This document shows positions 11,138-64,000 of a stretch of 64,000 bases of DNA, one piece after another. The stretch comes from Liolophura sinensis (Eukaryota > Mollusca > Polyplacophora > Chitonida > Chitonidae): the NCBI RefSeq assembly GCF_032854445.1, contig NC_088297.1, forward strand, positions 550,169 to 614,168, read 5' to 3'. The notes under the pieces were generated by a model. That model ran no database searches. It saw only the letters and a program-made list of their open reading frames with translations, and had not been told where the DNA came from. The position numbers and the translations under genes are program-made. The first letter of the stretch is position 1. Every line of letters begins with the position of its first letter.

Positions 11138-11545
11138 TTTATGATTATATATGTTTATGTAATTGATAAAACTGGTAAAAGGCAACTGGTGTCTTGTGAC
11201 ATGAAAATCAAACATTGTTCTATTTCTATTTCTATGTTCTATTTATTTTCTCCCTTTTTTTAATATACCGAAGGAATGCCTAAATCTGTGACACAAAGTC
11301 AATAAACCATTCGTCTAGCTAAAATTCGCCGGATGAATTTATCAAATACCATATGGGCTTAGTCTCACATACGCTCTCTAAGTCCTAAAGGTGGATCTGG
11401 TTTCTAACAGAACTGAGAGTGCCTGAACGTAAATCACTGTTCCTCTCTGTTCCTCTCAATTCCACATGTTTTCCCTTACGGACCCTCTAACACATTCATT
11501 ATTTTCATCACAATAGTGTCATAAATGATGCAATCCTCAGTTAAG

Positions 11546-11774
11546 TTTATTTATTTACCTGAGTGACATTTTACGCCGCACTCAAGAATAATTCACTTAT
11601 ACGATGGCAGCCAGCATTATGGTGGGTGGAAACCGGGCAGAGCCCGGGGGAAACCCACGACCATCCGCAGGTTGCTGGCAGACCTTCCCACGTACGGCCG
11701 GAGAGGAAGCCAGCATGAGCTGGACTTGAACTCACAGCGACTGCATTGATGAGAGGTTCCTGGGTCGTGACGCT
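11546..11774 (-). mobile_element. SINE family 1 (copy 1)
   Basis: Tail and core to the B-box region; the tRNA-like head is cut at ctgggtcgtgacgct. Confidence 0.92.
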
Positions 11775-11799
11775 GCCCTTTCTTGAGTCTTTCTTCATA

Positions 11800-12650
11800 C
11801 TAAGGGCATCAACATCTCATTCAGCCATAATGATTATAGTTTCCTGGAAAATGTGCATGAGCTTTAACCCATGCACTTTTTCAGCTTCCACTCAAGGAGT
11901 AGTAACTCCAGTTCTCTACATAATTCATGTTACTGTGACTGGTATGTGTGGCTATTTTATAGACGAAACTGTGTCGGAATTTTACTGACACACCCAAACT
12001 GTTTATTCAGATGTGTTAATTTCAGATACGAGAGATGTCTGAATTAATTAACATGTCTGAAAATGATTTTAGGATATATGAATGTGATTTCAAATTATCT
12101 CGAAATGATTTAAAATGGTTGCCAATAGCAACCGTTGATTTCAATAAAAGACATGTATATTACACACATGGAGATAAAAAGTAAAATACTAGTATGATAA
12201 AAAAGCTGAAGGAAAATAATTACACATGTAATTATCTTTATCAATCTACAGAATAAACATTCACATGGTACCAGTATCAAGACTGAATTTCATGAGTTTA
12301 GATTTTATATGCTGCTCTCGGTTTTAAAACAAGTACCAGTATGTAAACATTTACACACAGATGGGGTTATATGTACCTTATTTCTTCTAATTTTTGGGAA
12401 CCTGGTCTGCTCTTTTTAGCCAATATACATTAACTTAGCAAGAAAATTTATTTTCTTTCTTCTCACATGGTTAGGCCGGGATACGGACAAAAGTCCTCCT
12501 GTTACTGGAAGGGTGGACAAAAATGGGGGGGGGGGGGGTCACGGATGAAGCTGCAGGATGAAGTGTGGAGCTATGAAATAAAATGTGGTGAAAACACGTT
12601 GCAGGGATTAATATATTGGTGAAACACAGCAGCCACTAAGTAACCGTATT
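11800..12650. other. Non-coding or unassigned
   Basis: AT-rich sequence with a short frame (SENDFRIYECDFKLSRNDLK and following, better preserved in copy 2 at 40840-41001) that I do not recognise, and a G run at about 12524. Probably the upstream part of the degraded Penelope-like insertion. Confidence 0.4.
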
Positions 12651-12651
12651 A

Positions 12652-12891
12652 AACAACATCTAAACCAGCATCTAGTGGCTATGACTCTGCTGTGTTCCAA
12701 CATATATGTAATTCAGGTCACGGTTTTATTGGGGGACAACGTAAATATTTTATCCGAACAGCCCATTGGTTTGATAGAGGGGTTAAGGAAGCCATTTTCG
12801 TAAAGGTTAAAAATCCCACTCTCAACCACAATGGAGGACTCCAGATTTAAACCTATCACACACCTGGGACACAGTGTTGAAAAAATGTTAA
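12652..12891 (+). pseudogene. Penelope-like element remnant, GIY-YIG C-terminus, broken (copy 1)
   Basis: It matches the fragment at 41440-41688, but the frame is broken by small indels (ggggg run in attgggggacaac, extra c in ggactccagattt). The decoded pieces keep the pattern H-x-C-x-x-GH-F, then WFDRGVKEA. Confidence 0.5.
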
Positions 12892-13529
12892 TTAACTTGT
12901 GCAAATGTACCTCAACATGGTAAAATTTGTTCACTCATGTAAAACTGTATCTACTTAAATTCGGTCACCATATACCAGCTCCTGTTGTCTGTTTTTAAAT
13001 TGTATAGACCCAATGTATACATCAACCATGAATTTGAGATGTCTTCACCATGAAACTTGTACATACTGTTTTGTTAACTTTGTTTTTTGTATGTAAGTTC
13101 AATATAAATAGGGATTCTTTTTGTTTAACACCTTACTCTGTTGAAGGCGTTAGGTTGTCACTGCAACGTCAGTAAATAATATAAAATAATTGTTCAGTAG
13201 AACGGTTTTATAGTGTTATCTTTTATACAGCATATTAAATCCAAAGGTTGATAAAAGGAGCAGCAAAGAACACAAAACTGATGCTTTATTTTGTATAACC
13301 AGGTAAATTATTTCTGTTTTAAAATGCATATACTTTAATTTCACTTCAACAACAACATGGTTATCAGCTTTAATTTGCCGACCTTGGAAATGATGAGTAC
13401 AATAAAATGGTTATACCGTCATTAAACACGATCATCACGTCAGAACAAAACAGTCAGTTTTGAGTGAAATGAGGACAAAATGGTTGTCTTAACTTTCCAC
13501 TACAAATAAATAAGCAGGAACTGCCCCCG

Positions 13530-14071
13530 TGTCTGCCGGAGCAAACCCCGTCGCCGGACAAGCCTATCCGGTAATATACCTCAGGCACGTCTGCCGGAGC
13601 AACCCGTCGACGGACAAGCCTGTCCAGTAATATACCTCAGACGCGTCTACCAGAGCAAACCCGTCCACAAGACAAGCCTGTCCCAGTAATATACCTCAGA
13701 CGCGTCTACCAGAGCAAACTCGTCACTAGACAAGCTGCAATGTAATATACCTCAGACGCGTCTGCCAGAGCAAACAAGTCACTAGAACAAGCCTGTCCAG
13801 TAATATACCTCAGACGCGTCTACCAGAGCAAACTCGTCACAAGACAAGCCTGCAATGTAATATACCTCAGACACGTCTGCCAGAGCAAACCCGTCACTAG
13901 ACAAGCTGTCCGGTAATATACCTCAGACACGTCTGCCAGAGCAAACCCGTCACTAGACAAGCCTGTCCGGTAATATACCTCAGACACGTCTGCCAGAGCA
14001 AACTCGTCACTAGACAAGCTGTCCGGTTTTATACCTCAGACGCGTCTGCCGGAGCAAACCCGTCACTAGAC
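13530..14071. repeat. 57-bp minisatellite, about 9.5 copies (copy 1)
   Basis: Unit includes gcctgtccag-taatatacct, cagacgcgtc-tgccagagca and aacccgtcac-tagacaa. Several units carry one-base indels, so no long frame survives. This copy lacks about 450 bp of left flank present in copy 2. Confidence 0.95.
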
Positions 14072-14718
14072 TGAACCAGACACAAGAGTTTACTCTAAGA
14101 GCACTTTATATTCCATCACAGGGCCCTCTGCATATGTTTTTTCAATACCACTAGAAAATGTCCCAAAAAAGGGAACTGTCATTGTGCAAATACATGTACG
14201 TGTACATGCTGATACTGGTGAATAAAAGTTGTTCAAGCACAAATCTATGCTACATATATAAAGCCAAGTTCATGGGAACATCTGGTGTGTGACTGAGGTA
14301 AGATGTACATGTACTGTACAATGATCCTGAAAACCATGAGCCGGAGTACTGCAGGCATGACATCTTCAAAAGTACATTTGTTTACATTTGTCCAGATATT
14401 CTGAACTGGGCTGGATTGTTTATTACTTGCATGTAAATGTCCGCAGATATTCACTATAACAATAAACAGCAGATTGGCTGGACTTACATCAGGTACGTGT
14501 AAACTTAAAGGAGAATTAGAGTGCAGAAATTGCAGTGCTGGTCAAAAACTGCAGTAGAAAAAAAAAAAAAGAAAGTTTTATCACTGTTCGTACGACAACA
14601 CACAAAAAGAGCACTACAGTAGATGTCATAAAAGGGGATCAACCTTGTAGACACATAAACATGCGTGTATATTTACAATTTAGGGCTAATTCATGACAAA
14701 AAATCTGATGAACAGTTT

Positions 14719-14908
14719 TACAGCAAAATAACCTGTAAATGTAAGGTGTTTGCATGGGAAGGAGTTTCAGCAAAATAACCTGTAAATGTAAGGTGTTTGC
14801 ATGGGAAGGAGTTTCAGCAAAATAACCTGTAAATGTAAGGTGTTTGCATGGGAAGGAGTTACAGCAAAATAACCTGTAAATGTAAGGTGTTTGCATGGGA
14901 AGGAGTTT
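14719..14908. repeat. 47-bp minisatellite, 4 copies (copy 1)
   Basis: Unit approximately cagcaaaata-acctgtaaat-gtaaggtgtt-tgcatgggaa-ggagttt. In copy 2 only one unit is present (44078-44124). Confidence 0.93.
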
Positions 14909-14916
14909 CAATCAGC

Positions 14917-15140
14917 CACATGCGGGTGGTTGTGTGTTTCCCCCCCGGGCTCTGCCCAGTTTCCTCCCACCATAATGCTGGCTGCTGTCATATACATGTA
15001 CATGTGAAATATTGTTGAGTATGGTGTAAAACACAACTCAGTATACTCAACATCTAAACAATCTTGAGTACGGTGTAAAACACCATTTAGTATACTCAAT
15101 ACATAAACAATCTTGAGTATGGTATAAAAACACCACTCCA
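14917..15140 (+). mobile_element. SINE family 1 fragment with repeated tails (copy 1)
   Basis: A 3' half (gggctctgcccagtttcctc to gtgaaatattgttgagtatg) followed by two more tail-like units (atcttgagtacggtgtaaaa). Counterpart at 44127-44357, with a long C run (about 18) in place of ccccccc. Confidence 0.8.
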
Positions 15141-15157
15141 AAGCTGTTTCTGCAATC

Positions 15158-15556
15158 ACCTTTTGCAATGTCTTGCCCCTACTCACAGATCCTAATTTCT
15201 CACCTTTTGCAATGTCTTGCCCCTACTCAGACATCCTCATTTCTCACCTTTTGCAATGTCTTGCCCTTCTTGCCCCTACTCACAGATCCTAATTTTTCAC
15301 CTTTGCAATGTCTTGCCCCTACTCACACATCCTCATTCCTCACCTTTTGCAATGTCTTACCCCTACTCACACATCCTAATTTCTCACCTTTTGCAATGTC
15401 TTGCCCCTACTCACAGATCCTCATTTCTCACCTTTTGCAATGTCTTGCCCCTTCTTGCCCCTACTCACAGATCTAATTTCTCACCTTTTGCAATGTCTTG
15501 CCCCTACCCACACATCCTCATTTCTCACCTTTTCCTATACCTTGCCCCTACTCACA
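15158..15556. repeat. 44-bp minisatellite, about 9 copies (copy 1)
   Basis: Unit approximately cttttgcaat-gtcttgcccc-tactcacaga-tcctaatttc-tcac, some units with an extra cttcttgccc. Confidence 0.94.
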
Positions 15557-15599
15557 TATCACCGATATAAGCCATAGCTGCTCTGCAATCACCTCGTAA

Positions 15600-18500
15600 T
15601 TTCTCAACTTTCAGACTGTGTGTGATTTATGCAAAGTTTTAATTTGATTTCAGAAAACTGACGTACACTAGCTGAGTTGTCCAACTTCACGGCTACACAG
15701 AGAGTATAACTTCACAGAACACATACCTAATATATACCAGTACAACACGGAACAATTCCCTTTGAATATTCATGAATCAACCTCTTGCACACATGCCAAA
15801 ACATAGAAGAATTACCGTCCTGTAATCTCATTTCTCTCATGTGATTTATGAGCAACTCAAATCATGCAAATATTGATTTGCACTTTTTTGCCAGTTCAGT
15901 AGAACACATACATATGCTATATATACTTTACTTACCTGGTAAATCTTTCAAACTGTATATATATATATACACACACATTATGTGGATGCACTCATTTTGT
16001 ACAGGTAACATTACAGGGGCCCTTGACTGCATGGACTTACTTTACTCCAAAGTATATTACTATCTACATATATACATGCAATTTTCGTACACTTTCAAGC
16101 ATGTGAACAGAAATCAATGTGTACTGAAGGAAATTCCTAACTGGATGCTGGAAAGTCTGCTTTTGTCCTCAATGAATCAATGAATATTTCAATTCATGTC
16201 ACTTTTAAATATTTTACATGATACAATACATGTAGCTTATCCATTAAGCGGACACAGGTAATAATATGAGATCACTCAAGCATGTCACATGTAGACATGT
16301 AGACTAATAATTGACATGCAAGTACCCGTGACTTAGAACTTGGAGTCATTGGGCAGACAAAAGCCATTTGCTTCTTCTTGTTCTCAACAAATACTTTCTG
16401 TTAATTGGAACTACATGTATATGAGAGAACTGGACAAAATTGTAATTTAGAGGAATGAAAGGAGATACATGCGAGGCTGGATATTTTCTACAGCGCCATT
16501 ATACACCTGTAAGCGCACGTTGTAGGCTGCACATGCACTTCAATGCATTAAAGGAGGAGAAAACTTTTAAAAAATGGCACTAATGACACTGGAAAGAGCA
16601 CATGTTTTTCTATCTGATGGTGACGGCTGCATAATTTTGCCATTTTTCCTCGCCATACACGTAAATCCTGAATACGGCAAAGCTGGCATAAATCGCTAAG
16701 TCCATCGCGTCTTCCATCTTTAACACCCCGTAATTTGTGCTGGGGGGTGTGGTTGCCCCTCAGCCAATGAGATTCGCTAAAACTGCCGGCTTGTTCGTGT
16801 AACTCGGAACCTACATCCATCATTCCGGTTACCCGATCCTCAAGTGGAAAACGAACTGTACTGTTCTCTATATTCTGTGAAGAAGAGTTCCACCAGAATG
16901 TACGAACTGTACTTCTGCACTTTCCTATGGCAATTCTCGTCTTAACACAGAAGACTTCAGGACAAGTTCTTAGGCAAGATGGAGTCGCCCACAGCGGATT
17001 CTGGTGCTGACTTTATTTATAATTTATCAACTTGAGGTACATATTAGAATTTTCTTTATGGCATGCACCTGCAAGGAAATGCATACTCGTCTCAATGGTA
17101 TTTGATTGATATTTAAATTTTCTTCTCCTTTAAGTCTTTTAAGCAAAAACCAAATGTTAGACCCAGGTTCCCGTGAATTCCGCCCTTAGTAACTCAAGCA
17201 TGTAGTTCGTTACTTTACACATATTTCAGAAGGCATGAACAGAAGAGGTATGTAGTTTCGAACGCTATGGAAAACTTATAATGCTTACTTATGCATCCTT
17301 CACGCTCGTCTTTTCCATCTTCAATGGTATTTGACTGATATTTAAATTTTCTTCTCCTTTAATGTATCCACATGAACACAAATACTCATCTTCATTTCAT
17401 TTACTTGTAATACATTTGTTCGTTATTTTGTTTTTTTTTTTTTTAAATCAATCTGTGAACATAAAATCAAGTGTCTTGTGGAAAACCTTCATGAAATCCA
17501 TTGTCTATAGCATTACTGTATATGACACATTCATCTACAATATTTCACTGTGTTGATGTTGTACATTTATACACAATTTATTTTTGCCCCAACTTAGCAG
17601 TCAAAATGATGAAATACTGTACCTGTCCCAAATATGTCTTATACACTTGTACATGTGTAAACTGTGTATGTATCCGCAGAATATGGCTGCACCTGCACAT
17701 GTGTAAACTGTACATGTATCCGCAGATTAGGGCTGCACCTGTACATGTGTAAACTGTATATGTATCCGCAGATTAGACAATGCAAGTGTAAACCATCAAC
17801 CTTAACCAGGCACATGTTAATGTACCTGACAAACTAAGGATTTAAAGCTGCAGCCAAATTACATATAGCAAGATTTGAACCCTTAACCTCATAGACATTG
17901 GTCATCCAATCTCATTACCAGCAGCAATCCAGGGCTTACTTTCACTAAACTTTGTACATTAAGTTTTCATAACTTTTCTTGTAAATCTTTGACACGTTTG
18001 ACAAAAAAGTTATGAGATACACGTCTTGCGAAGTGAAAGTGAAAGTGATCCAGGGTTTCATTATAAAAACCATCTCAGCCATCGAAGTCATCTTTTATTG
18101 TCAAGTTGAATTTAACACATACTAGAGCTTTAATTTTTACATTTATTTTATAGGTCACCACCATTCACATGGGGCATCACCTGACAGGTTGTCTCTCCCT
18201 CTGCCACCAACACCACCCCCACTCCTCACCCCCCCCACCACGCTCCAATAACTGTCGTTACCCAAAGTGACATACCACACCATCAGTGATTTGGTCTGTA
18301 TGCACAAATATCACATGTTTACATGTGCACACCGGTATCATTTGCATGCAGCAATGTATAAAATGCCAGCAGCTGACACATAGCTCTTGTCTGCACCAAT
18401 AAATCTGATATTCATTTCAAACTATGGCTAGCCATTTTAGAATATTTTTTCTGAACACAAGCAGGTGTATATGTACACACAGTGTCATATGATGTACACA

Positions 18501-20380
18501 TGTACACATACTTGACCTTTTACTGTTCTTACATGTATGTCAATGATGGAGACATTATGCACTTCAAAAGGACTCTTCCAAAAAAAAAAAAAAAAATTCA
18601 AAAAAAATTTTGCATTTGGCTGTTTGGACATATGTGAAACACTATTTTGTACGGTCAAACAGATTACCTGTTAAAGAATTCATCACCTGCAATTTGACGA
18701 TACTTATCAATTCTCAAGCTTCAACTGGCCTACAGTTCTGCTCTAAATCATCTAAACAATTATTGGTAATACTTGTACGTAGTTTTTTTAGTCACAGGAT
18801 GTACAAAATGATACTTTTACAACATGTGCCCCATCACACAAGTACAGAACTAACGGTATACATGTACAACATGTATCTGGAACAGATGTGGGTAGGAACG
18901 TTGGCGTAGGAAGGGTGTTATATCACAGGAAGATGTTCACATCATACGCCAATCATACAGCCAAGATGGGTGTACTATTCTCGCAGCATGGGCGTAAGAT
19001 GGGCGTAAGATCCCACCATCATTCGCGTAGGGTTTTACGACTTACACTAACATTCACATTCAAACCCATCGAACTTATAACAAATGTCGCGTTATTTGAC
19101 ACCGACATTGCTTGTTCTCTCTGAATAAAAAAAAATATTCACAAACGGTCTCGTTCCCGGCATGGTTACTAATTCACACATAATCATGATCATACACAAA
19201 TCCAGTTCTTAATGTTTCCGCAATTATTCGGTAAATGCAAAACCATAGCCTTCATGTACAATACACGAATTTCTTCAATGCAAAAGTCAATTTAAGTACT
19301 AAATATAGTGTATAGTTATAACAGAACTTATACCTAATAATTTAGACACCACAAACGGCTAATTTATAATAATTGCACAGCTTTTGGCAAGAGCTGACAT
19401 CATCTCTGGTTGTCCAGGAATGCTGTTAGGATTTTACATCTCCACTGACACTAATAAATTTCACTGAGAAGTTGGCAAATCCTGTGACTGTATCAAGTAC
19501 AAGTGTATATATACATGTAGGTGAACAAAACAATTTATGTATCCATGATTTCTACACGAATACAGGTACATTACACTGGGCACTCTAAATACTGTACATG
19601 TATCATCTGGTTTACATCACAACGCCTTTACCTGATTTGTGTTTAATAACATAGCACAATCAAGATGGTCTTTTCTCCCATACATCTACATTTACATCTA
19701 CATACAATGACAATGACACGAGACGACTGGCGTATAAACGCACTCAGTTCCACCATGCCAAAAACCACCTGCAACTGAATAATGGTGTTTGAAGTCTCAA
19801 GAGAGACAAAATTAACGGCAGTACGGAAGGCATGCTATCCTAACTGTTTAAATCTGGTTGGCACAACACTGTTGTGCCACTCATCAACATGAGAACAGCT
19901 TAACATGCTTCTGTCTACCCTCTTTGTATTACATTATGTACCGCCTACATGTAGCTTGTTAACTGACTTAGTGATATATATGGTCAACACATGAAATATG
20001 CATATTTCAAGCAAATATTGATCCCAGTGTGTTAGAATAATGTGGTTATGGGGAAGGCAAGTTAAATGTCAAGTTGTCAACCATAAAACTACGTGCAAAT
20101 ATATGTGCTAATTAGCATTCCAAGTAAAGTGTTTGACCTTTACATAGCCACATGTGAAGCAGTCTTATGTTAAAATGTGCTGAGCGTGGAAGGGAACGCT
20201 GTGAGAACACACACAAATTACTGTATTACTGTTATTATTAAACTGTTCTGCATGTTTGAAAGATGTTTGATCATGTATATTCTGAAAACATTAATCTGAA
20301 GAGACTGATAAAATCATCATTTTTGTGACATGAAATTGGCCAGATCTACTGATGTAGTTTTGTCTCCAAAATCAAATTCA
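15600..20380. other. Unassigned, KIAA0319-like intron 1 (copy 1)
   Basis: AT-rich, with microsatellites (ta at 15957, poly-A at about 18580), a C-rich stretch at about 18205-18245 and the 46-bp repeats. No exon, tRNA or intact element was recognised. It lies inside the 11.6-kb first intron of the KIAA0319-like gene. Confidence 0.5.
17645..17785. repeat. 46-bp repeat, 3 copies
   Basis: Unit approximately acatgtgtaa-actgtatatg-tatccgcaga followed by ttagggctgcacctgt. Counterpart in copy 2 at about 46700-46830. Confidence 0.85.
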
Positions 20381-20401
20381 AAAGGTTAACAATTTAACTT
20401 T

Positions 20402-22180: not shown

Positions 22181-22189
22181 CTTCCATAA

Positions 22190-23230: not shown

Positions 23231-23233
23231 GAT

Positions 23234-27701: not shown

Positions 27702-27887
27702 ATGTCCTACTTTGTGCAATATGTGGTTTTACGGAAAGACGTACTGAAAACACTTAAGTGGCCGTTCGGAGCGGTGGTCACGCAAGCGTGTCATGCTTGT
27801 ACTGCTGTTATACATGAGAACTACAGAGATCCGAACACACAACAATACCTGTCCAAAATTGACGAGATGCACAAGGTGGTCCTAGAG
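27702..27887 (+). CDS. PTRHD1: PTRHD1 exon 1 (copy 1)
   Basis: Start context is AAGATGT. The 62 codons read MSYFVQYVVLRKDVLK, then WPFGAVVTQACHACTAV, and end at VVLE|GTGAGA in phase 0. This is the N-terminal half of the Pth2-type peptidyl-tRNA hydrolase fold as found in PTRHD1: VQYxVLRKDL, WPxGAxVxQACHAxTA and KVVLE match vertebrate PTRHD1 closely. The protein is small (118 aa with exon 2, against about 140 aa in human, which has a longer N terminus). The enzyme family releases peptides from tRNA, but the activity of PTRHD1 is less certain; human variants are linked to parkinsonism with intellectual disability. The 734-bp intron holds a SINE tail fragment and a nearly full-length SINE. Confidence 0.93.
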
Positions 27888-28015
27888 GTGAGAAATTATT
27901 AAAGTGATTTGTGTATATTTGTTTGGTTATTGGTGTTTAAAGACATACATGTTCTCAAGGATGTTGACTTAAATTGGTGTATGAAAAATTTGGTTTGATC
28001 AATTTTAATTTTTGA

Positions 28016-28425: not shown

Positions 28426-28621
28426 GGTGTAATTAATATGCGAATTATGCGAGTCTTAATGAACATTCAGGGTAATGTGCCTCATTAGGTTAACTCACTT
28501 GTGTGTGAAATAGTTTGTGAAAAGATATCGCGATAAAAAGGTAATCGTTAAAAGAAAACTGTAAACTAAAGAAAGAAAGATGCAAAACAAGGACAAATGC
28601 TTAACATGCTTTTTGTTTCAG

Positions 28622-28792
28622 GCAGATGGTGAGAGTGACCTTAGGAAGCTAGCAGAGTCTTTGACAGAAGCAAAAGTCGCCCACAAATTGTGGATAGAGC
28701 AGCCAGAGGGAATTCCCACGTGCCTGGCTGTCATGCCCTACAAGAAGGAGGACATTCAGTCCCATTTCAAAGGGCTTAAATTGTTTAAATAA
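28622..28792 (+). CDS. PTRHD1: PTRHD1 exon 2, terminal (copy 1)
   Basis: Acceptor tttttgtttcag, phase 0. It encodes 56 residues starting ADGESDLRKLAESLTEAKV, followed by AHKLWIEQPEGIPTCLA, and ends FKGLKLFK before TAA. The LWxEQPExxxTCxAxxPY block and the final KxxxLFK are hallmarks of PTRHD1. No AATAAA is obvious in the next 100 bp; an ATTAAA lies only a few bases after the stop. Together with exon 1 the gene looks complete and intact. Confidence 0.93.
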   Translation, partial: ADGESDLRKLAESLTEAKVAHKLWIEQPEGIPTCLAVMPYKKEDIQSHFKGLKLFK

Positions 28793-30310: not shown

Positions 30311-30313
<3 letters not shown>

Positions 30314-34139: not shown

Positions 34140-34208
34140 CTAACGCCTTTGTAGCTTTTTGATCATTTTCATTGTTTTCCTGCATCATTGGGGCTGGTGC
34201 CTTCATCA
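34140..34208 (-). pseudogene. ELOA: ELOA terminal exon with one-base frameshift (copy 1)
   Basis: After acceptor ctctcttttcag the exon reads (V)MKAPAPMMQ and then loses frame. Copy 2 has ttttctgc where this copy has ttttcctgc (extra C at 34179-34180, plus strand). In copy 2 the frame goes on to the conserved basic Elongin-A end KTMKMIKKLQRR-stop; here it runs into ENNENDQKATK and past the normal stop. The coordinates given run to the position of the normal TAG. The rest of the gene shows little decay, so an assembly or consensus error is as likely as a true null allele. Confidence 0.75.
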
Positions 34209-34481
34209 CTGAAAAGAGAAAGTAAAAGAATACACAGTTTTACATGATATCGAGACAGAATTGCCTCACTTTGAGTCTCGGACACAACCTCTAAGGACAC
34301 TGCCAGTTATGCTTGGTATACACAAGAGCCTGGCGCCCAACTCAACTCAACTTGACGACTTCATCGAGTCATAACTGTTCGTGTGTGCGACATGAGTTGG
34401 ATGACATTTTAAGCTCTTGTGTATGCCGCGATTTAAAGACTAGAACAAGACGTAAGACAGTATTGACTAAGACTGACTCAC

Positions 34482-34676
34482 CTCTGCGTGGAGCTACAGG
34501 AGCTGTGTCCATGGCGAGGCGACTCTTGAGACTCGATCTCTGGTAGCCAGCTGGGTTAGGTTTGGACCCTGAGGGGCTCATGTCCACTGTAGCCGTCCCA
34601 TACTTCATCTGTTTTCGTCTCACATCTCGCGGCGGTTTGGCAACAGTGTCCACATATGCGAGCTTGGTGAGACGCA
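34482..34676 (-). CDS. ELOA: ELOA penultimate exon (copy 1)
   Basis: A 195-nt, phase 1-1 exon (acceptor ttattttcag; donor CGCAGAG|GTGAGTC). It contains KLAYVDTVAKPPRDVRRKQ followed by MKYGTA, almost the same as the Elongin-A motif KMAFVNSVAKPPRDVRRRQ that I recall from vertebrates. After this comes a Pro/Ser-rich stretch ending APVAPRR. Elongin A is the large subunit of the SIII (elongin) complex, which raises the rate of RNA polymerase II and also recruits elongin B/C and Cul5 to ubiquitinate stalled Rpb1. Confidence 0.92.
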
Positions 34677-36263: not shown

Positions 36264-36365
36264 CAGATACAGTTCTCGCCAGGATTCCATCTCGTCTGGT
36301 TTGGCGCCCCGGAAATCCCGGTTACACAAAATCACCCACAGCTCATCCGTCTCACCCAAAAATTG
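36264..36365 (-). CDS. ELOA: ELOA exon with ETDELW...ESWRELYL motif; probable one-base indel
   Basis: Acceptor tttttctttcag; donor TATCTG|GTAAGG. The frame reads FLGETDELWVILCNRDF, then AKPDEMESWRELYL, a clear match to the Elongin-A core (ETDxLWxxHCxRDF...ESWREMYL). As written the exon is 102 nt and enters in phase 0, but the preceding exon (37855-37953) ends in phase 1. Taking one base from the five-T run just after the acceptor (plus-strand AAAAA at 36358-36362) would restore both phase and an ungapped fit to Elongin-A. A homopolymer error in this contig is therefore likely. Confidence 0.85.
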
Positions 36366-37854: not shown

Positions 37855-37953
37855 TGGATTGTAGTCCTTCAAGTCTGTACAACTGTTCAGCAGAGCATTT
37901 CTCTAGGACAGGCTTCAGAATGTAATATGGTACACCTCCTACATAGTCCAGAC
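37855..37953 (-). CDS. ELOA: ELOA exon VGGVPYYILKPVLEKC
   Basis: A 99-nt, phase 1-1 exon (acceptor ctctttgaaacag; donor AATCCA|GTGAGTC). It encodes LDYVGGVPYYILKPVLEKC, then SAEQLYRLEGLQ, matching the Elongin-A segment after the elongin-C-binding box (EVGGVPYxxLxPVLExCxxxQLYRIE). The BC-box exon that should come before it was not found between 39500 and the N gap. The first half of this exon and its acceptor have been amplified into the adjacent 95-bp minisatellite. Confidence 0.87.
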
Positions 37954-39500
37954 CTGTTTCAAAGAGAAACACTGATGACTGTAACAAGACAGACAACACA
38001 GACAGGCATCAGAATATAATATAGTACAACACCTACACAGTCCCAGACCTGGAGTAGACCTACATTTAAGTAAAGGTGATTTGCATAGGCAATAATAAGA
38101 CAGAGTACACAAACAGGCATTAGAATGTAATATGGTACACCCCTACATAGTCTAGACCTGTTCAAAGAGAAACACTGATGACTGTAACAAGACAGAGAGT
38201 ACACAGATAGGCATCAGGATGTAATATGTACACCTCCTACATAGTCCAGACCTATTCAAAGAGAAACACTGATGACTGTAACAAGACAGACGACACAGAC
38301 AGGCATTAGGATGTAATACAGTACAACACCTACACAGTCCAGACCTGGAGTAGACCTACATTTAAGTAAAGGTGATTTGCATAGACAATAATAAGACCAC
38401 AGAGTACACAAACAGGCATTAAAATGTAATATGGTACACCTACATAGTCCAGACATGTTCAAAGAGAAACACTGATGACTGTAACAAGACAAACAGTACA
38501 CAGACAGGCATTAGAATGTAATATGGTACACCTACATAGTCCAGACATGTTCAAAGAGAAACACTGATGACTGTAACAAGACAAACAGTACACAGACAGG
38601 CATTAGAATGTAATATGGTACACCTACATAGTCCAGACATGTTCAAAGAGAAACACTGATGACTGTAACAAGACAAAGTGTACACAGGACGTCCATCAGA
38701 ATGTAATATGGTACCACCTCCTATATAGTCTACACCTGTTCAAAGAGAAACACTGAAGACTGTAACAAGACAAAGTGTACACAGACGACTATCAGAATGT
38801 AATATGGTACACCTCCTACATAGTCTACACCTGTTCAAAGAGAAACACTGAAGACTGTAACAAGACAAAGTGTACACAGATGACCATCAGAATGTAATAT
38901 GGTACACCTCCTACATAGTCTACACCTGTTCAAAGAGAAACACTGAAGACTGTAACAAGACAAAGAGTACACAGATAGGCATCAGAATGTAATATGGTAC
39001 ACCTCCTACATAGTCTACACCTGTTCAAAGAGAAACACTGAAGACTGTAACAAGACAAAGAGTACACAGATAGGCATCAGAATGTAATATGGTACACCTC
39101 CTACATAGTCTACACCTGTTCAAAGAGAAACACTGAAGACTGTAACAAGACAAAGTGTACACAGGACGACCATCAGAAATGTAATATGTTACACCTCCTA
39201 CATAGTCTACACCTGTTCAAAGAGAAACACTGAAGACTGTAACAAGGACAAAGAGTACACAGATAGGCATCAGAATGTAATATGGTACACCTCCTACATA
39301 GTCTACACCTGTTCAAAGAGAAACACTGAAGACTGTAACAAGACAAAGAGTACACAGATAGGCATCAGAATGTAATATGGTACACCTCCTACATAGTCTA
39401 CACCTGTTCAAAGAGAAACACTGAAGACTGTAACATGACAAAGAGTACACAGATAGGCATCAGAATGTAACATGGTACACCTCCTACATAATCCAGACCT
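37904..39500. repeat. 95-bp minisatellite derived from an ELOA exon, about 15-17 units
   Basis: Units of about 95 bp contain caaagagaaacactgaagac, tgtaacaagacaaag and atcagaatgtaatatggtac with acctcctacatagtc. Read on the minus strand, each holds the acceptor ctctttgaacag and the first 45-50 nt of the ELOA exon at 37855-37953 (VDYVGGVPYYIL). Two or three units have an extra segment (tggagtagacctacatttaa). The array ends close to an unrelated stretch at 39500. Confidence 0.93.
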
Positions 39501-39837
39501 GAATAGAATACATGTAAGTAATGTGATTTGTATAGATGTATAACCTTGACTTTGCAGATTACCGTAAGAGTAAACTATGCAAAAAAATTTATTATACTCT
39601 TTTCCACATGTGTGACGCCATATGTACGAGTCTGGGGAATAATGGCATTTTGTCTCCAACAGATATGCCCCAGCGCTTTCAAACTGTTGAACCACTTTCA
39701 CGTAAACAATGACACTGACCCACACAGTGACATCACTATGTTACCATGGTTACTGCAACAATGTTTATACAACAATGGCTCATTACTTCATGTCATGGAA
39801 TTCTAAATTTTCAAACACATAAGAAAAATGGACTAGT

Positions 39838-39949
39838 ACGGAGAAATGGTGTATCACAGAGAAATGGCCTATTACAAAGAGATGGCCTATTACAGATTAA
39901 TGGTGTATCACAGAGAAATGGCCTATTACAAAGAGATGGCCTTACAGAG
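39838..39949. repeat. 18-bp tandem repeat ending at the N gap
   Basis: Units such as agagatggcctattacaa and agaaatggtgtatcacag alternate for six copies and stop at the gap. The array probably continues into the gap and may have ended the contig. Confidence 0.85.
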
Positions 39950-40149
39950 NNNNNNNNNNNNNNNNNNNNNNNNNNNNNNNNNNNNNNNNNNNNNNNNNNN
40001 NNNNNNNNNNNNNNNNNNNNNNNNNNNNNNNNNNNNNNNNNNNNNNNNNNNNNNNNNNNNNNNNNNNNNNNNNNNNNNNNNNNNNNNNNNNNNNNNNNNN
40101 NNNNNNNNNNNNNNNNNNNNNNNNNNNNNNNNNNNNNNNNNNNNNNNNN
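39950..40149. other. Assembly gap, exactly 200 N
   Basis: A round-number gap of this kind is normally a scaffolding placeholder of unknown true length. It sits between a short tandem repeat on the left and the start of duplication copy 2 on the right. Confidence 0.98.
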
Positions 40150-40362
40150 AATTCGTCGGATGAATTTATCAAATACCATATGGGCTTAGTCTCACATACG
40201 CTCTCTAAGTCCTAAAGGTGGATCTGGTTTCTAACAGAACTGAGAGTGCCTGAACATAAATCACTGTTCCTCTCAATTCCACATGTTTTCCCTTACGGAC
40301 CCTCTAACATATTCATTATTTTCATCACAATAGTGTCATAAATGATGCAATCCTCAGTTAAG

Positions 40363-55387: not shown

Positions 55388-56043
55388 CGTATATTGTGAT
55401 AAATGGCATGAATAAACCCGAATCATTATTTCAGGTGTTTTGCCAGTTCCACAGTTTTAGGCAAGGCATGATTTGATGATAGTTGCTAGATTGAAAAAAC
55501 ATCTCGCATAATCGGGTTTGTTGGCTCAATGGCACTGTTAGCAGCTACATTAAAATCTTGTCCTTTAGCCGTATTAGTTTTTGAGAGCCCGCGCCTTATC
55601 CCGCCTAAATCTGTGTGAACTTGTGAGAACACTGAAATACTGATTCCACTTTTTAAGATGACAGTAATTCTGTACATGTGATCCGATCTATCAAGACACA
55701 TCATCAGAGCGAGGCATATCAACATTGTGTCAGCCTCAATTATCTCGTACATTGTGCTACATGTATGGGTGAAATTTATTAAAGCGTAATTATGACCCAT
55801 TAGTTTTGTCCAGCTTGGAAGTTCGTAACATTAAAATGTATAACCAGTGTTCAACATATTGTCACATGATAAGATAACAGTCTTTACTAAAGAAAGCTTA
55901 ACAACTGCGTCATAATTGTATGATTTCATATTACACTGTGAGATGATGTAGAAATTTGATTTGAAAAAGTTGAAATGTTGTTGTTGGATTAATCTACATG
56001 ATATGAAATGACTTTACTCTCGGATGATCCTATATCTGAAATA

Positions 56044-56320
56044 AGGGCCTCCATGGTTCAGTTGGTTAGCGCGCTAGCGCAGTGCAATGACCCAGGAGCC
56101 TCTCACCAATGCAGTCGCTGTGAGTTCAAGTCCAGCTCATGCTGGCTTCTTCTCCGGCCGTACGTGGGAAGGTCTGTCAGGAGCCTGCGGATGTTCGTGG
56201 GTTTCCCCCGGGCTCTGCTCGGTTTCCTCCCAGCATAATGCTGGCCGCGGTCACATAAGTGAAATATTCTTGAGTACGGCGTAAAACACCAATCCAATAA
56301 AATAAATAAATAAATAAATA
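56044..56320 (+). mobile_element. SINE family 1, full length (copy 2)
   Basis: Counterpart of 27130-27402. Confidence 0.93.
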
Positions 56321-56415
56321 TATCTGAAATAGATGTGGCACAATCAGAAAATAACTCGCCTATAAGCATTCAATAGCTGTGTCTGCATGATCCTCTCTTT
56401 GCAGAGTAACCTTAC

Positions 56416-56535
56416 CTGGTTGAACTCAAAAACAATCCATAAGTAGTTTCTTACTTCAACTGCAGCTTGGATGTATTGTAGACGTGCTGTGTGGAAGGCT
56501 TTCACTTTTATCTTGAGATTACCTGTGCACTTCAT
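56416..56535 (-). CDS. Unidentified first exon, divergent from PTRHD1 (copy 2)
   Basis: Counterpart of 27498-27617, with identical sequence over the coding part and donor. The first difference between copies lies about 25 bp upstream of the ATG (caacattc versus caagattc on the plus strand). Confidence 0.33.
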
Positions 56536-56619
56536 GAAATAAGACAAAGTTCAAGATTCCTAGCACTGCAACGCTGACGAGTTCAGTACTTCATAGAAGG
56601 TTTTTGGTTTCTGAGAAAG

Positions 56620-56805
56620 ATGTCCTACTTTGTGCAATATGTGGTTTTACGGAAAGACTTACTGAAAACACTTAAGTGGCCGTTCGGAGCTGTGGTCACG
56701 CAAGCGTGTCATGCTTGTACTGCTGTTTTACATGAGAACTACGGAGATCCGAACACACAACAATACCTGTCCAAAATTGACGAGATGCACAAGGTGGTCC
56801 TAGAG
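56620..56805 (+). CDS. PTRHD1: PTRHD1 exon 1 (copy 2)
   Basis: Second copy of the exon at 27702-27887, same length, start and donor. Amino-acid differences from copy 1 are RKDL for RKDV, AVLHENYGD for AVIHENYRD. Leu in RKDL is the residue I recall in vertebrate PTRHD1, so copy 1 carries the derived residue there. Confidence 0.9.
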
Positions 56806-57080
56806 GTGAGAAATTATTAAAGTGATTTGTGTATATTTGTTTGGTTATTGGTGTTTAAAGACATACATGTTCTCAAGGATGTTGACTTAAATTGGTGTAT
56901 GAAAAATTTGGTTTGATCAATTTTAATTTTTGAACCTGCCTTCTTTCCGTTGTACAAGTGAAGTATTCTTGAGTACGGCGTAAAACTCCAATCAGATAAA
57001 TAAATTAATTATTGTCACAATGACATTATTAGGAACTTACATGATTTAGATAGTTATATCTGTGGCATTTCTGATTAATT

Positions 57081-57345
57081 GGGGGCCTCCGTAGCTCAGT
57101 TGGTTAGCGTGCTAGCGCAGTGTAATGACCTAGCAGTCTCTCACCAATGCGGTTGCTGTGAGTTCAAGTCCAGCTCATGCCTGGCTTCCTCTTTGGCCGT
57201 ACCTGGGAAGGTCTGACAGCAACCTGCGGATGGTCGTGGGTTCCCCCTCAAGCTCTTCCTGGTTTCCTCCCACCATAATGCTGGCCGCTGACGTATAAGT
57301 GAAATATTGTTGAGGAAGGCATGAAACACCAATGAAATAAATAGG
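57081..57345 (+). mobile_element. SINE family 1 in the PTRHD1 intron (copy 2)
   Basis: Counterpart of 28164-28425. Confidence 0.92.
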
Positions 57346-57540
57346 TGTAATTAATATGCGAATTGTGCAGTCTTAATGAACATTCAGGGTAATGTGTCTC
57401 ATTAGGTTAACTTACTTGTGTGTGTGAAATAGTTTGTGAAAAGATATCGCGATAAAAAGGTAATCGTTAAAAGAAAACTGTAAACTAAAGAAAGAAAGAT
57501 GTGAAACAAGGACAAATGCTTAACATGCTTTTTGTTTCAG

Positions 57541-57711
57541 GCAGATGGTGAGAGTGACCTTAGGAAGCTAGCAGAGTCTTTGACAGAAGCAAAAGTTGCC
57601 CACAAATTGTGGACAGAGCAGCCAGAGGGAATTCCCACGTGCCTGGCTGTCATGCCCTACAAGAAGGAGGACATTCAGTCCCATTTCAAAGGGCTTAAAT
57701 TGTTTAAATAA
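57541..57711 (+). CDS. PTRHD1: PTRHD1 exon 2, terminal (copy 2)
   Basis: Second copy of the exon at 28622-28792, open and full length. It differs in protein by LWTEQPE for LWIEQPE. The Ile/Thr change is in the conserved LWxEQPE block, where a hydrophobic residue is usual. Other substitutions, such as gtcgcc/gttgcc, are silent. Confidence 0.9.
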   Translation, partial: ADGESDLRKLAESLTEAKVAHKLWTEQPEGIPTCLAVMPYKKEDIQSHFKGLKLFK

Positions 57712-57906
57712 CTTAATTAAATTTAAAGTGTAAATTATTTTGTAATACATGTACGTTGTTGCTTTATAAATTGTTACTACATTTCTCTTTTGCATGCCAT
57801 GACTTCAGATTTATTGATTCATTGGTGGATTTTGAAATAATGTTTTTGACTTTTGCTGTAAAATGCCAGACATAAGCCATAGAAAAAGTGCAAACTACAT
57901 GTGACT

Positions 57907-59009
57907 TAATACATCAGTAGTGTAACTCTGAAAAAAGACTTCATTGTGACTCAATTTTTCGGCATTTTATGTAGCCATCATTAGGAGAGCGTTTCCCTTC
58001 CCCTCCACCTCCTCCCACTGGCCCAGATAGCACAGTTGGTAGAGCGTCCGTTTCAGGAGCGGTAGATCCAGGATCAATCCTGGGTCGAGTCACACCTAAG
58101 ACTTTAACAGAGGAAGTTGTAACTTCCTCGCTTGGGGTTCAGCATGGAAGGGATAGTGCAACGACTGGTTGACCAGTATCAGTATAATGTTTTGGGCGGG
58201 GCATGACGTTAAACCCCAATCACTCACTCACTCACTACACCTTCTCACCTCCCCTTCCAACCCACCTCCTCCCCTCGGACTTTTTCTCTTGTCACAACCA
58301 TTCATAATAATAGTCATATTTTACTCGTACTTTGTTTATTAGTCAGTAGGTTATCTAACCTATAGTTTATGATTAGTTTATTCTCTGTAATTTCTGTTTA
58401 CAAGCCCTTAAACTCACTGGTTATGGGTTTTGTTTGTTTAATTACTATAACAACCCATATCACTGCACAATGTATATATGTCATTGCCTGTTTCATTTTG
58501 AGCACTCTCCTGATGAGGGCTAAAACAAAAGAAACAAAATATTGTGTCACACTGAAGTCTTTTTTTCGGAGTTACACTACTCGTGTATTCTGTAACTATA
58601 TAGAGCACTTTGACAACTTACTTATGTAATTTCTACTTAATCTGCTTATTTACTAAGATAAGAGTTAACACTAGAACATTATCTCTTTATGAAAAACTGT
58701 AGAACAATTACTCTAAAATTACCTCACCTAGAGAGAGAGGAACTGACGAACAACATTTGGTGTGAAGATTTGTACTGAATGCTTGGAGTGTCTTTTACAG
58801 CATAATCTTTTCAGATTGCACAAAGCTTACCCCATTAAAATCTGCGTTATTTTATGGTACAATACGATATAACAACCCATGTCACTGCACAATGTATATG
58901 TCATTGCCTGTTCCATTTTGTACACTCTCCTGATGAGTACTGTATAAAATGCTGAAATTTTTGAGTCACAGTGAAGTCTTTTTTTCGGAGTTACACTACT
59001 CATGTATTA
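57907..59009. mobile_element. 1.1-kb element with inverted ends (copy 2)
   Basis: Counterpart of 28986-30110 with the same three end copies and SINE. Its right-end copy reads ctgatgagtactgtataaaa where copy 1 reads ctgatgagggctggtataaa. Confidence 0.68.
58017..58240 (+). mobile_element. tRNA-derived SINE (family 2) (copy 2)
   Basis: Counterpart of 29098-29330 without the internal duplication. Confidence 0.88.
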
Positions 59010-59211
59010 CATTAACCTCATCAGGACATGTGCCCTAAATGACTATAAATTTTGTCCATGATGAACTTGTCAGTTTTTCCTGATTTTCAGTTCTATTGAG
59101 TTTAGAAAGGTGTTTTGAGGTTTGCTTGATTTTACATAGGATGATATTCTACAGGAAAATTATAAGTTTTCAACACCAAATATAATATTTTGCGACATTT
59201 ACATGTATCTG

Positions 59212-59224
59212 CCCCCCCCCCCCC
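59212..59224. repeat. Poly-C tract, 13 nt (copy 2)
   Basis: Short counterpart of the 37-nt C run at 30314. Confidence 0.9.
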
Positions 59225-59531
59225 GAAATGCACTTTTGTGGGTGAAATTATAGATCATGTGGGGTATTTGAGGAATCCTCAGAGGTATTTGACTCCTGAG
59301 GTTTGACAGGTACTTTGTGCAGGTGGGTGGTTTTCTCCAGGAATTTGACCTACAAACCCGATTGTCCATACTCAAGGATATTACGAACCTGACCTATATG
59401 CCATCGTTTATATTTGGGAATCAGTTTTGAGCACCAATGGCTGTTTAATCCTCAATTCCTGGAAACAAACATTGACGTCAGCTTCCCTGCAGATTTTTTC
59501 ATTTTTGGTTCAATTGTAGACATGCTGCTGC

Positions 59532-59807
59532 TTTATTTATTTATTTATTTATTTGATTGGTGTTTTACGCCATACTCAAGAATATTTCACTTATACAAAG
59601 GCAGACAGCATTATGGTGGGAGGAAACCGGGCAGGGACCGGGGGGAACCCACAACCATCCACAGGTTGCTGACAGACCTTCCCACTTACGCCCTGAGAGG
59701 AAGTCAGCATGAGCTGGACTTTGAACTCACAGCGACCGCATTGATGAGAGACGGCTGGGTCATTACACTGCGCTAGCGCACTAACCAACTGAGCCAAGGA
59801 GACCCCC
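59532..59807 (-). mobile_element. SINE family 1, full length (copy 2)
   Basis: Counterpart of 30662-30937 with a shorter G run. Confidence 0.93.
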
Positions 59808-61436
59808 GACATGCTGCTACCGTGTAAGTTAAGACTAGTAATCGTGGTAATGGAGGCACACCTCTTCCACCATGGAAAATTCAATAATCGCAAAAGTTTT
59901 TGGCTTATGCAAAGTGTTTACTGTCTAACCTCAACTGTCCCTTTTCACTGGTGTCACAAAACCCTGGGTCTTTCCACAGGACTTAAAACATTAGGCTTCA
60001 GTGTTTCAAAGAAAGTGCTCAGTCACATCCAGTATAATTCCACTTATAAGGCCAGTTGTGGATGGAGGAAGTTCACCATCTATGATTTGCACGGGTTAAG
60101 TTTATTTGGCTATTTTAGTCACGTCACGAAGGTGTCTCCATGTAGCAGGCAGCACCCAGTGCATACACGTTTATAATGCTGCCTCACTGGAATGCCATGC
60201 CAGAGACTTGGTGCTCGGTCCATTCCCACTGAGCACCAAGAGAGGTAGTACCAAGAGATTTGGGAGCCCGGGGGAAACCCCCGACAATCCAAGGTTGCTT
60301 GCAGACCTTACTTGGTCCGATCTTTGGAAGTTCAAATGTTAACCTACTGGAAAAATGTAAAAAACTAAAGTATTATTTCAGGACTTACATATAACACTAA
60401 AACTGAATTGTTGCGGGTCAAATTTCAGGCCATTTGCCATCAGCATTAGTATCAAATTCCTCAGTACATGTACATTCATAAGCCTGCCCAAGTAAAAATA
60501 TTGGACAGTTGCACAGAAATAAAAAGAAAGGATAAAATTTCCAAAGATAAATTTATTACAAGACATTCAGTTGGATCATACAGATATTATACATGTAACA
60601 CGTTACCCAGCATGTCATAACTGATCACCAACATTTGATTCACATCACAGGATCTATCAGACTAATAACAAAGAAATACAATAAACCCAAATGAAAGCAC
60701 TTCCGTAATAAAGTTAGTTAGCCAGCATCACACTATATCGTCCAAAAATTGGATTAAATATCGCGCAAGAAAAATCGGCTGAAAGGAAAAGATTCCAAAT
60801 CAAATCGTAACAAATTTATGCAACATAGAGTTGTTTGATTATGTAGTCATTATAACAAATGCAAATTGGATTATCAGAAGAAAACAAAGTGGTGAAGCTT
60901 AAAATGACAAAACGACATCAACGATGTAAAGAGAGTTTTAGAATACAAGTAAACTACGTATTTCCAATTTTTCACATGCAACAATTTCCAAGACTTGGAA
61001 AAGATCACTGAAGATAACCGTTATAGTACAGTATAATTTGCACTCACTTTCTGGATGAACTAAGCAGAAAACAGAAGTATAAACATGCAACTACGTGGTA
61101 ACTAAATGGACGCACATCCATGTGACATGGACCCGCTGCATTCTCGCCCATCCGAGAAAAATGACGTGTTTTACAAGAACAAGATTTTCCAGGACTTTCA
61201 AGGACCCCTGTTAGTGTACAAAGCTTCATAGTGGAGTTCATGATAAATACTATTTTGGTCATGTTTTCATTGTTCCATTTTGAACATAATGCCATGTATT
61301 CAGCTTTCAAAAAAAACCAAGATCTTCGCAAAAATTCATTTTTCGAGGACTTTCAAGGTTCTAAAAACCTTTCACCAAATAAATGTACATACAGGTGTAA
61401 AAGGTTTCACTTTCCACAATAATGCCTAGCTAAAGG

Positions 61437-61577
61437 GAGCTGCCAGCAACCTGTGGATGGTCGTGGTTTCCCCCCGGGGCTCATCTCGGTTTCCTCCCAC
61501 CATAATGGTCGCCATCGTATAAGTGAAATATTCTTGAGTACGGCGTAAAACACCAATTAAATAAATAAATAAATAAA
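61437..61577 (+). mobile_element. SINE family 1, 5'-truncated (copy 2)
   Basis: Counterpart of 32565-32702 with the same truncation point. Confidence 0.9.
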
Positions 61578-61753
61578 GGGAGCTCAAGCCACTTACACAC
61601 TTTCCTCAGTCACGACATACTGGTAGACTTCGTGTAAGGCTGGCCAAATGGTTATACCAACCTATCAAGCATTAACAGGCACCAAAGCTCAGAGGAACGG
61701 AATCTTAAAAGGAACCAACACCTACTGAGTCCTATCAGCTGAAGGGCAAATGT

Positions 61754-62026
61754 GTTTATTTATTTATTTATTTACTTGACTGCTGTTCTTTCGTTGCACT
61801 CAAGAATATTTCACTTATAAGACGGCAGCCAGCATTATGGTGCGAGGAGACCAGGTAGATCCCGGGGGAAACCCATGACGATCCACGAAGTTGATGTCAG
61901 ACCTTTCCATGTATGGCCAGAGAGGGAGTCAGCATGAACTGAACTTGAACTCACAGCGACAACATTGCTAAGAGGCTCTGTCACTGCGCCGCGCTGGCGC
62001 GTTGAGAACCTCGGCCATGGAGGCCA
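61754..62026 (-). mobile_element. SINE family 1, near full length (copy 2)
   Basis: Counterpart of 32880-33150. Confidence 0.9.
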
Positions 62027-62092
62027 ACTGGATGTGTTAATAAGGACCTGAGCACAAACCATTCTCGGTCTGTTATAGGATAACGTGAAGGT

Positions 62093-62203
62093 GGCTGTAC
62101 GTGAGAAGGTCTGTCAGCAACCTGTGGATGGTCGTAAGTATCCCCTGGGGCTCTGCCCAGTTTCTTCCCATCGTAATGCTGGCCGCCATCGTATAAGTGA
62201 AAA
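62093..62203 (+). mobile_element. SINE family 1, truncated at both ends (copy 2)
   Basis: Counterpart of 33217-33325. Confidence 0.88.
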
Positions 62204-63018
62204 ATGTAAAATCTGGAATACAGTGTAGCGTAAAATGTGTGAAGCAAATAAACACATCACATGAAGGTATGCTTATGTATTTTCTCATGAGCAGTATGAC
62301 ACCTGAACATGCACAACAGAAGTACGAATATATATACAAATATGAACCACAGAATAAATCACATTCCAAAACGCACGAATCATATGTCCTCATAACAACA
62401 GCAACTAAAAGTCGTACTATTTAAATATTTCTATGTTCATCTGTAAATCTTGTCACCCCACAAATGAATATTCAAACGCTTTCGTCCGTTCATAACTTAA
62501 AACAAACAGAAAGATCTTGTGTATTAGCTTTATAAACTTTTGATCTCAAAATTAAGTTTACATTTAACGTTAAGCGAAATGAATTCTGTTATACAGCAGC
62601 GCATGTTTTCACTTCTGCGTTTTTATATTCACATAAAAATGAACATAAATTTTTTTTTTCCATAACAGGTATATTCCCACACTTAAGATTGTAATCACAG
62701 AGAAATCACACAGATTTACTGATATGGAAAAAAATAATTAAAACAAACTTTAAAAAAGGCGTATTACACCGTTAAGCTGTGTATCAAACTGGAGTACACT
62801 TTTACTTCAATGAGTCTTTTTCTTGCAACGCGGAAGCTTTCCTTCCACTCAATACCCCGCCGTCACAATGAGAACTACTCATGGCTATGACAGCACTTTC
62901 CTTGACTTTTTCACATTTATTATGAAAATATCTCTGAAATGTTATATTGCTAAAATGGCCTTTTGCTCCTGGCCGACAGACAGACAAATGAATCTACCTT
63001 GCGGATGACAGGTGAATT

Positions 63019-63086
63019 CTAACGCCTTTGTAGCTTTTTGATCATTTTCATTGTTTTCTGCATCATTGGGGCTGGTGCCTTCATCA
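63019..63086 (-). CDS. ELOA: ELOA terminal exon, intact (copy 2)
   Basis: This 68-nt exon enters in phase 1 and encodes MKAPAPMMQKTMKMIKKLQRR then TAG. That is the usual Elongin-A C-terminus (APMMxKTxKxxKxxxxRR-stop). It serves as the reference showing that copy 1 (34140-34208) has a one-base insertion. Confidence 0.9.
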
Positions 63087-63457
63087 CTGAAAAGAGAAAG
63101 TAAAAGAATACACAGTTTACAGTCAGGAAGACACTTTGGCGTATAGCCTTACATCCACTCTGAGTCTCAGACACACCCTCTAAGGACACTGCCAGTTATG
63201 CCCCTGCGTACATGATATCGAGACAGAATTGCCTCACTTTGAGTCTCAGACACACCCTCTATGGACACTGTAAGCTATGCTTGGTATACACAAGAGCCTG
63301 GCGCCCAACTCAACTCCATTTGACGACTTCATCGAGTCGTAACCGCTCGTGTGTGCGACATAGTGAGCTGAGTTGGATGACATTTTAAGCTCTTGTGTAT
63401 GCCATGATTTAAAGACTTGAACAAGACATAAGACAGTGTTGACTAAGACTGACTCAC

Positions 63458-63652
63458 CTCTGCGTGGAGCTACAGGAGCTGTGTCCATGGCGAGGCGACT
63501 CTTGAGACTCGATCTCTGGTAACCAGCTGGGTTAGGTTTGGACCCTGAGGGGCTCATGTCCACTGTAGCCGTCCCATACTTCATCTGTTTTCGTCTCACA
63601 TCTCGCGGCGGTTTGGCAACAGTGTCCACATATGCGAGCTTGGTGAGACGCA
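63458..63652 (-). CDS. ELOA: ELOA penultimate exon (copy 2)
   Basis: Second copy of 34482-34676 with the same splice sites and length. The only coding difference I see (GGC/GGT at the Gly of AGYQ) is silent. Confidence 0.9.
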
Positions 63653-63667
63653 CTGAAAATAAGAGTT

Positions 63668-63915
63668 CATTTATTTATTTATTAATTTATTTGACTGTGG
63701 TTTTACACGGAACACAGAAATACTTCAGCCAGAATTACAGTGGGAAGAAACTGTGCAGAGCCCACAGGAAACAAACGAAAACAAACAAACCATCTGCAAG
63801 TTGCTGTTAGGGCTTCTTCCATACATCTCAAGTAGTGTAAGTTTGAGTGCATTAATGAGAGGAGCCTGAGTCATTGCACTGCGCTAGAACACCAACAAGT
63901 TGACCATAGAGGCCT
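63668..63915 (-). mobile_element. SINE family 1, old copy in an ELOA intron (copy 2)
   Basis: Counterpart of 34693-34937. Confidence 0.82.
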
Positions 63916-64000
63916 CTTTCAAACATTAGGACACATCCTGAACTGCATATTAAGAAATAGCATGACTCCTTAAACATGTAACTATAACAAACCCTTGTTT

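Follow-up and report, generated by a model that had tools for sequence, protein, structure and literature searches.

Two direct copies of a 28.6-kb block on either side of a scaffold gap in the Liolophura sinensis assembly are very probably alleles of one locus

The stretch of DNA analyzed here (the window) comprises 64,000 nucleotides of the polyplacophoran mollusc Liolophura sinensis (NCBI RefSeq assembly GCF_032854445.1, contig NC_088297.1, positions 550,169 to 614,168 of the forward strand). It holds a long sequence block in two direct copies, separated by a scaffold gap. The block carries a PTH2-like gene and the 3' part of an Elongin A gene, and the N-terminal exon of a KIAA0319-like gene lies outside it. 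We refer to the contigs left and right of the gap as A and B, with copy 1 in A and copy 2 in B; the window numbering is continued for B positions above 64000, which lie in the 20 kb of scaffold directly after the window. Coordinates of all features are collected in Table 1.

The only run of N in the window is the 200-base gap at 39950-40149. When 40150-64000 was compared with 1-39949 by BLASTN, the matches formed collinear pieces on the same strand, from 40150 (paired with 11323) through 64000 (paired with 35023). Past the window end, the match between B and copy 1 extended to B position 67797, within a 95-bp minisatellite array, and the final 175 bases of A (39775-39949) corresponded to B 67797-67971 at 92.6% identity. 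The homologue of the last base of copy 1 thus sits at B 67971, 3,971 bases beyond the window end. Measured from the first base of B to the last base of A, the block spans 28,627 bases in A and 27,822 bases in B; its right edge in B falls between 67971 and ∼68789, since the 54-bp array in which A stops runs on in B. Contig B reads through ∼0.95 kb of this 18/54-bp array into new sequence. The overlap takes in the terminal parts of both contigs, with the gap exactly between the copies, and only gap sequence is present at the candidate junction of copy 1 and copy 2, where a junction could be hidden. Of the exact 24-mers shared between the copies and unique within each, 13,708 of 13,735 fall into one collinear chain, and the match between the copies far exceeds chance. 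The sequence-only reading of the window had described a 24-kb direct duplication beginning at the gap. Its start at 40150, order and orientation held, whereas its length was too short, because the window ends before the block does. The same reading had predicted an overlap of about 28.6 kb if the contig ends were allelic, as was indeed found in A, and the sequence after 64000 does match the rest of copy 1, the match ending only where copy 1 ends, apart from one stretch of 373 bases.

Copy number was assessed with four probe searches of the genome, two with probes from the block and one with a probe from each flank, and the best 40 candidates were scored in each search. Both block probes gave exactly two full-length matches, and the left-flank probe (9200-11000) and the right-flank probe gave one each. 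The continuation of the block to the end of copy 1 and the single-copy state of the tested flank probes support the earlier suggestion that the copies are haplotigs. Joins based on Hi-C can be wrong in general, and contig B might have been misplaced from a diverged paralogous locus elsewhere. However, order, orientation and end-to-end fit all agree, and no third copy of the block was found across the genome among the candidates scored for the two block probes. We therefore regard the chance of wrong scaffolding as practically negligible.

The assembly (GCA_032854445.1) was generated from one HiFi cell with hifiasm, purge_dups and YaHS. Its published description gives 14X HiFi coverage, a mean read length of 8,347 bases, a GenomeScope heterozygosity of 1.24%, and 632 scaffolds totaling 609.5 Mb with 1,110 gaps and 0.0364% N; scaffold_11, which carries the window, is 27,489,247 bases long (PMC11068029). 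The species was renamed L. sinensis in a later correction (PMC12441733). The published figures correspond to an average of 200 N per gap, the same as in the window, and to a mean spacing of ∼550 kb between gaps. By our own Lander-Waterman estimate, which ignores assembler details, ∼3 to 19 breaks would be expected genome-wide at 14.4X and 930 to 2,203 per haplotype at 7.2X. With few breaks at the full coverage and many at half of it, breaks are expected where the haplotypes were assembled separately, not per locus.

We aligned the copies by a chain of unique 24-mers with the gaps filled pairwise. The alignment contained 26,389 columns with 708 substitutions (2.68%) and 216 indel events; 612 substitutions in 23,859 columns remained after exclusion of the arrays. 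Divergence per kilobase had a median of 2.0% and ranged from 0.7% to 7.3% in the 27 of 29 bins with more than 700 aligned bases, and the two omitted bins, located in arrays at the end of A, gave 10.3% and 7.3%. The longest indels were minisatellite length changes together with other insertions and deletions; mid-block, two segments of copy 1 (125 and 82 bases) were missing from copy 2. Three 1-kb bins (12323-14322 and 16323-17322 in copy 1 coordinates) stood out at 6.9%, 6.1% and 7.3% versus the median of 2.0%, the second of them containing a minisatellite.

One-base differences in homopolymers were counted in end zones of one mean read length from each contig end, as fixed by the published read length. 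They numbered 5.18 per kb at the start of B and 4.61 per kb at the end of A, compared to 1.26 per kb in between (Fisher P = 1e-6 and 2e-5, respectively), and 5.26, 4.91 and 1.33 per kb with the arrays excluded (P = 5e-6 and 2e-5). As a weaker indication, this is the look expected of contig ends supported by few reads. A higher density of such differences toward both contig ends could also result if the same haplotype had been assembled twice because of read errors (a homotype false duplication). Nevertheless, read errors do not resemble the 1.7% substitutions found mid-block outside the arrays in combination with the 125- and 82-base stretches absent from copy 2, which makes this explanation extremely improbable.

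The gene cut by the block edge is Elongin A. Copy 2 matched PF06881 above the cut-off of 29.8 and copy 1 just below it, at 29.1 bits, and the BC-box and PPRDVRR exons in their copy 2 forms matched the Elongin-A chain 8oev_M with E values of 2.3e-8 and 4.5e-7. On the same strand, 6 to 7 kb beyond the block, there is an open frame of 584 codons with a TFIIS-like domain. Its best match was Elongin-A 6zuz (E = 4.9e-4), followed by TCEA1 (E = 0.007), and it has one match in the genome. Judging by strand, order and domain, this frame is probably the 5' exon of the same Elongin A gene. No such exon was found on contig A, which, as far as found, carries a tail of Elongin A but no head.

A true tandem duplication would thus have left copy 1 as a headless Elongin A. 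Over 152 codons in four exon pieces, with limits set by eye, the tails of the two copies differed by one synonymous and no nonsynonymous change (1 of 456 bases); among the noncoding bases around these exons, 113 of 3,328 (3.4%) differed. If only one copy were drifting, ∼7.7 changes would be expected in the tail (Poisson P = 0.004 for at most one), and 15.5 if both were (P = 3e-6). Since the coding bases are nearly unchanged, both copies seem to have been maintained as a working gene, as would be the case for alleles. With two one-base insertions in copy 1 (see below) left out of account as possible contig-end errors, the unconstrained evolution expected of a gene copy cut by tandem duplication is not seen here, although the test would miss a duplication formed very recently out of two diverged haplotypes.

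These observations bear on the possibility that the block is a real 28.6-kb tandem duplication with its junction hidden by the gap, originating, for example, from unequal exchange between diverged haplotypes. The unit junction would then have to coincide with one of ∼1,110 gaps spread over 609 Mb, and at 14X coverage a break at any given locus should be very rare. It would also leave an Elongin A copy without its head, yet with hardly any change in its coding bases, subject to the caveat on recent events given above. We consider a tandem duplication very unlikely and conclude with high confidence that the copies are two alleles of one locus, retained as a heterozygous overlap (a heterotype false duplication), rather than a real duplication.

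Several points nevertheless weigh against this conclusion. The end-to-end geometry would also be produced by a tandem duplication if the gap concealed its junction. The divergence between the copies (median, 2.0%; mean, 2.68%), which also have polymorphic arrays, exceeds the published genome heterozygosity of 1.24%, and purge_dups had already been run on the assembly. Contig B lacks the 373-base stretch mentioned above (A 39403-39775), of which ∼270 bases lie outside the array. The PTH2-like exons differ between the copies by four nonsynonymous and two synonymous changes in 119 codons, with no sign of constraint. Finally, the Elongin A part of copy 1 has two one-base insertions relative to copy 2 (34179 and 37866), both of which shift the frame. 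The geometry, the elevated divergence and these frame differences count at the same time in favor of a tandem duplication. However, both insertions fall within the final mean read length of contig A, where one-base homopolymer differences are 3.7 times as frequent per base, and 2.4 times per substitution, as in the middle of the block. We take the insertions as possible read errors at the contig end; a null allele or decay could also account for them.

The homopolymer differences themselves have to be read with similar care. Outside the arrays, substitutions were also denser at the ends (3.9% at the start of B and 2.7% at the end of A, compared to 1.7% in between), which explains part of the homopolymer excess. 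Calculated per substitution, the excess was 2.4-fold at the end of A (P = 0.008) and 1.7-fold at the start of B (P = 0.09). As significance is limited to the end of A, the value of these differences as independent proof of low-depth ends is weakened. A test for an extra base in whichever contig was ending gave P = 0.054 for the zones fixed by read length and P = 0.21 with the arrays excluded, and P = 0.003 was reached only in zones drawn after the list had been seen. The direction expected of end-of-contig errors is thus not established.

The account that follows adds three inferred elements, namely, half depth, the cause of the break and the exact assembler step, to the observed geometry, probe copy number, gene truncation and divergence. 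If the copies are alleles, the published 14X would have been shared between two haplotypes at ∼7-fold each. Contig A, with allele 1 at its right end, would have run out of reads at 39949, within a minisatellite, and contig B, carrying allele 2, would begin 28.6 kb earlier in locus coordinates. With an allelic difference of ∼2% and differing array lengths, the ends would have been merged by neither the assembler nor the purging step, and Omni-C scaffolding with YaHS would then have placed the contigs next to each other, correctly ordered and oriented, across a 200-N gap.

Table 1. Coordinates of the duplicated block, its flank and the features described (window numbering; positions above 64000 lie on the same scaffold beyond the window)
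Feature	Position	Strand	Basis or remark
Left flank, within the part tested confined to contig A	1-11322	+	genome-wide probing, 9200-11000 only
Copy 1 (interpreted as allele 1), rightmost part of contig A	11323-39949	+	collinear with 40150-67971; 28,627 bases
Scaffold gap between contigs A and B	39950-40149	.	200 N
Copy 2 (interpreted as allele 2), leftmost part of contig B	40150-64000, on to 67971 (array to ~68789)	+	
Elongin A 3' part, copy 1	37855-37951 (BC box), 36264-36356, 34474-34674, 34143-34209	-	PF06881 match, exon comparison
Elongin A 3' exons within window, copy 2	63450-63650, 63022-63087	-	
Elongin A exons beyond window, copy 2	65238-65330, 66817-66912	-	
Probable long 5' exon of Elongin A, beyond window, right of block	75103-76854	-	
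PTH2-like gene, two exons, copy 1	27714-27896, 28610-28786	+	PF01981
PTH2-like gene, two exons, copy 2	56632-56814, 57532-57705	+	PF01981
KIAA0319-like N-terminal exon, outside block	10165-10572	-	PF23597, E 2.4e-5, below curated cut-off
95-bp minisatellite, copy 1	37907-39501	.	17 matches to Elongin A acceptor/exon start, exon included
95-bp minisatellite, copy 2	scaffold positions equal to window 66868-67793	.	10 matches, exon included
18/54-bp minisatellite start, where contig A stops	39822-39942	.	

For the Pfam scan, which looked for further genes inside the block and to its left, 117 open reading frames (ORFs) were picked by hand from a listing of window ORFs (196 of at least 55 amino acids were counted), those left out being mainly array and dispersed-repeat ORFs. 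At E values up to 0.001, the scan returned PTH2 (two ORFs), KIAA0319_N (one ORF) and Elongin_A (one ORF). Further PTH2 matches were observed on C10 and elsewhere on C3, the window's own scaffold. A tRNA-like match was present in copy 2 at 58021-58092 (29.5 bits versus an Rfam threshold of 29), and none was reported in copy 1.

The KIAA0319-like N-terminal exon has one match in the genome and was the only such exon found. Five PKD-domain matches lie 22 to 30 kb further left on the same strand, which suggests that the KIAA0319-like gene extends leftward, away from the block, and is untouched by it. The sequence-only reading had argued that a tandem duplication would strand the first exon of this gene. 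This argument does not hold, because the exon, with its one genomic match, lies outside the block and the PKD matches lead leftward from it; the gene that a duplication would cut is Elongin A. A 73-bp minisatellite of 54 copies (left flank, 2446-6388) separates this N-terminal exon from the PKD matches. Each flank probe also matched a dispersed repeat. This element of ∼230 to 270 bases, perhaps a short interspersed nuclear element, is found at 10634-10861 of the window and in many other places; the flank probes gave 12,220 and 11,262 initial candidates, 40 of which were scored in each case.

On the minus strand, the 95-bp array lies directly upstream of the BC-box exon of Elongin A and ends with that exon as its final member. 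Each 95-bp unit includes the 3' splice acceptor of this exon and the first 47 exon bases, and units were accordingly counted by BLAST with a 67-base query (20 acceptor bases plus 47 exon bases). The acceptor AG/GT was kept in 8 of the 10 matches in the allele of contig B and in 13 of the 17 in that of contig A, the exon itself being counted in both totals. When part of the array was searched against the genome, with simple repeats skipped and two candidates scored, this locus alone was matched. The unit length is not a multiple of three, and when the Elongin A frame was read on from the unit adjoining the exon, a stop appeared within the first bases of the exon; use of an upstream acceptor in the array would therefore probably spoil the protein. 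It is possible, if doubtful, that the additional acceptors act as decoys, in which case Elongin A splicing would depend on the length of the array.

At this locus, the PTH2-like exons occur twice in the reference and Elongin A one and a half times, although a single gene of each kind is the probable true number. Caution is thus needed with local gene counts close to gaps in the Liolophura assembly. Such overlaps leave marks in the raw sequence that can be looked for, namely, where the gap lies, how the contig ends fit together, whether the flanks are single copy and whether a truncated gene still shows constraint. A partial genome duplication has been reported for Liolophura japonica (PMC12005716). 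The local overlap described here says nothing on that claim, and gene pairs straddling gaps would be worth omitting from counts of genome duplication.

The class of artifact is already known. According to its description, the purge_dups tool serves to clear haplotigs and "heterozygous overlaps" between contigs from assemblies of outbred species, marine animals included (PMC7203741). Like the overlaps described there, the block is a partial, end-to-end overlap of contigs, interpreted as homologous chromosomes, that an outbred marine animal's primary assembly has retained; unlike them, it survived a purge_dups run, at a low depth of 14X. False duplications have been characterized by half depth and by a gap between the copies on one scaffold, and in the same account they are traced mainly to haplotype sequence whose divergence exceeds that of the remaining genome (PMC9516828). 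The block shares with the heterotype false duplications of that account both the gap between copies on one scaffold and a divergence above the genome average. With a tandem segmental duplication it has in common two adjacent copies in direct orientation; it differs in that no junction is visible and in that the conserved gene which copy 1 would truncate is without coding drift.

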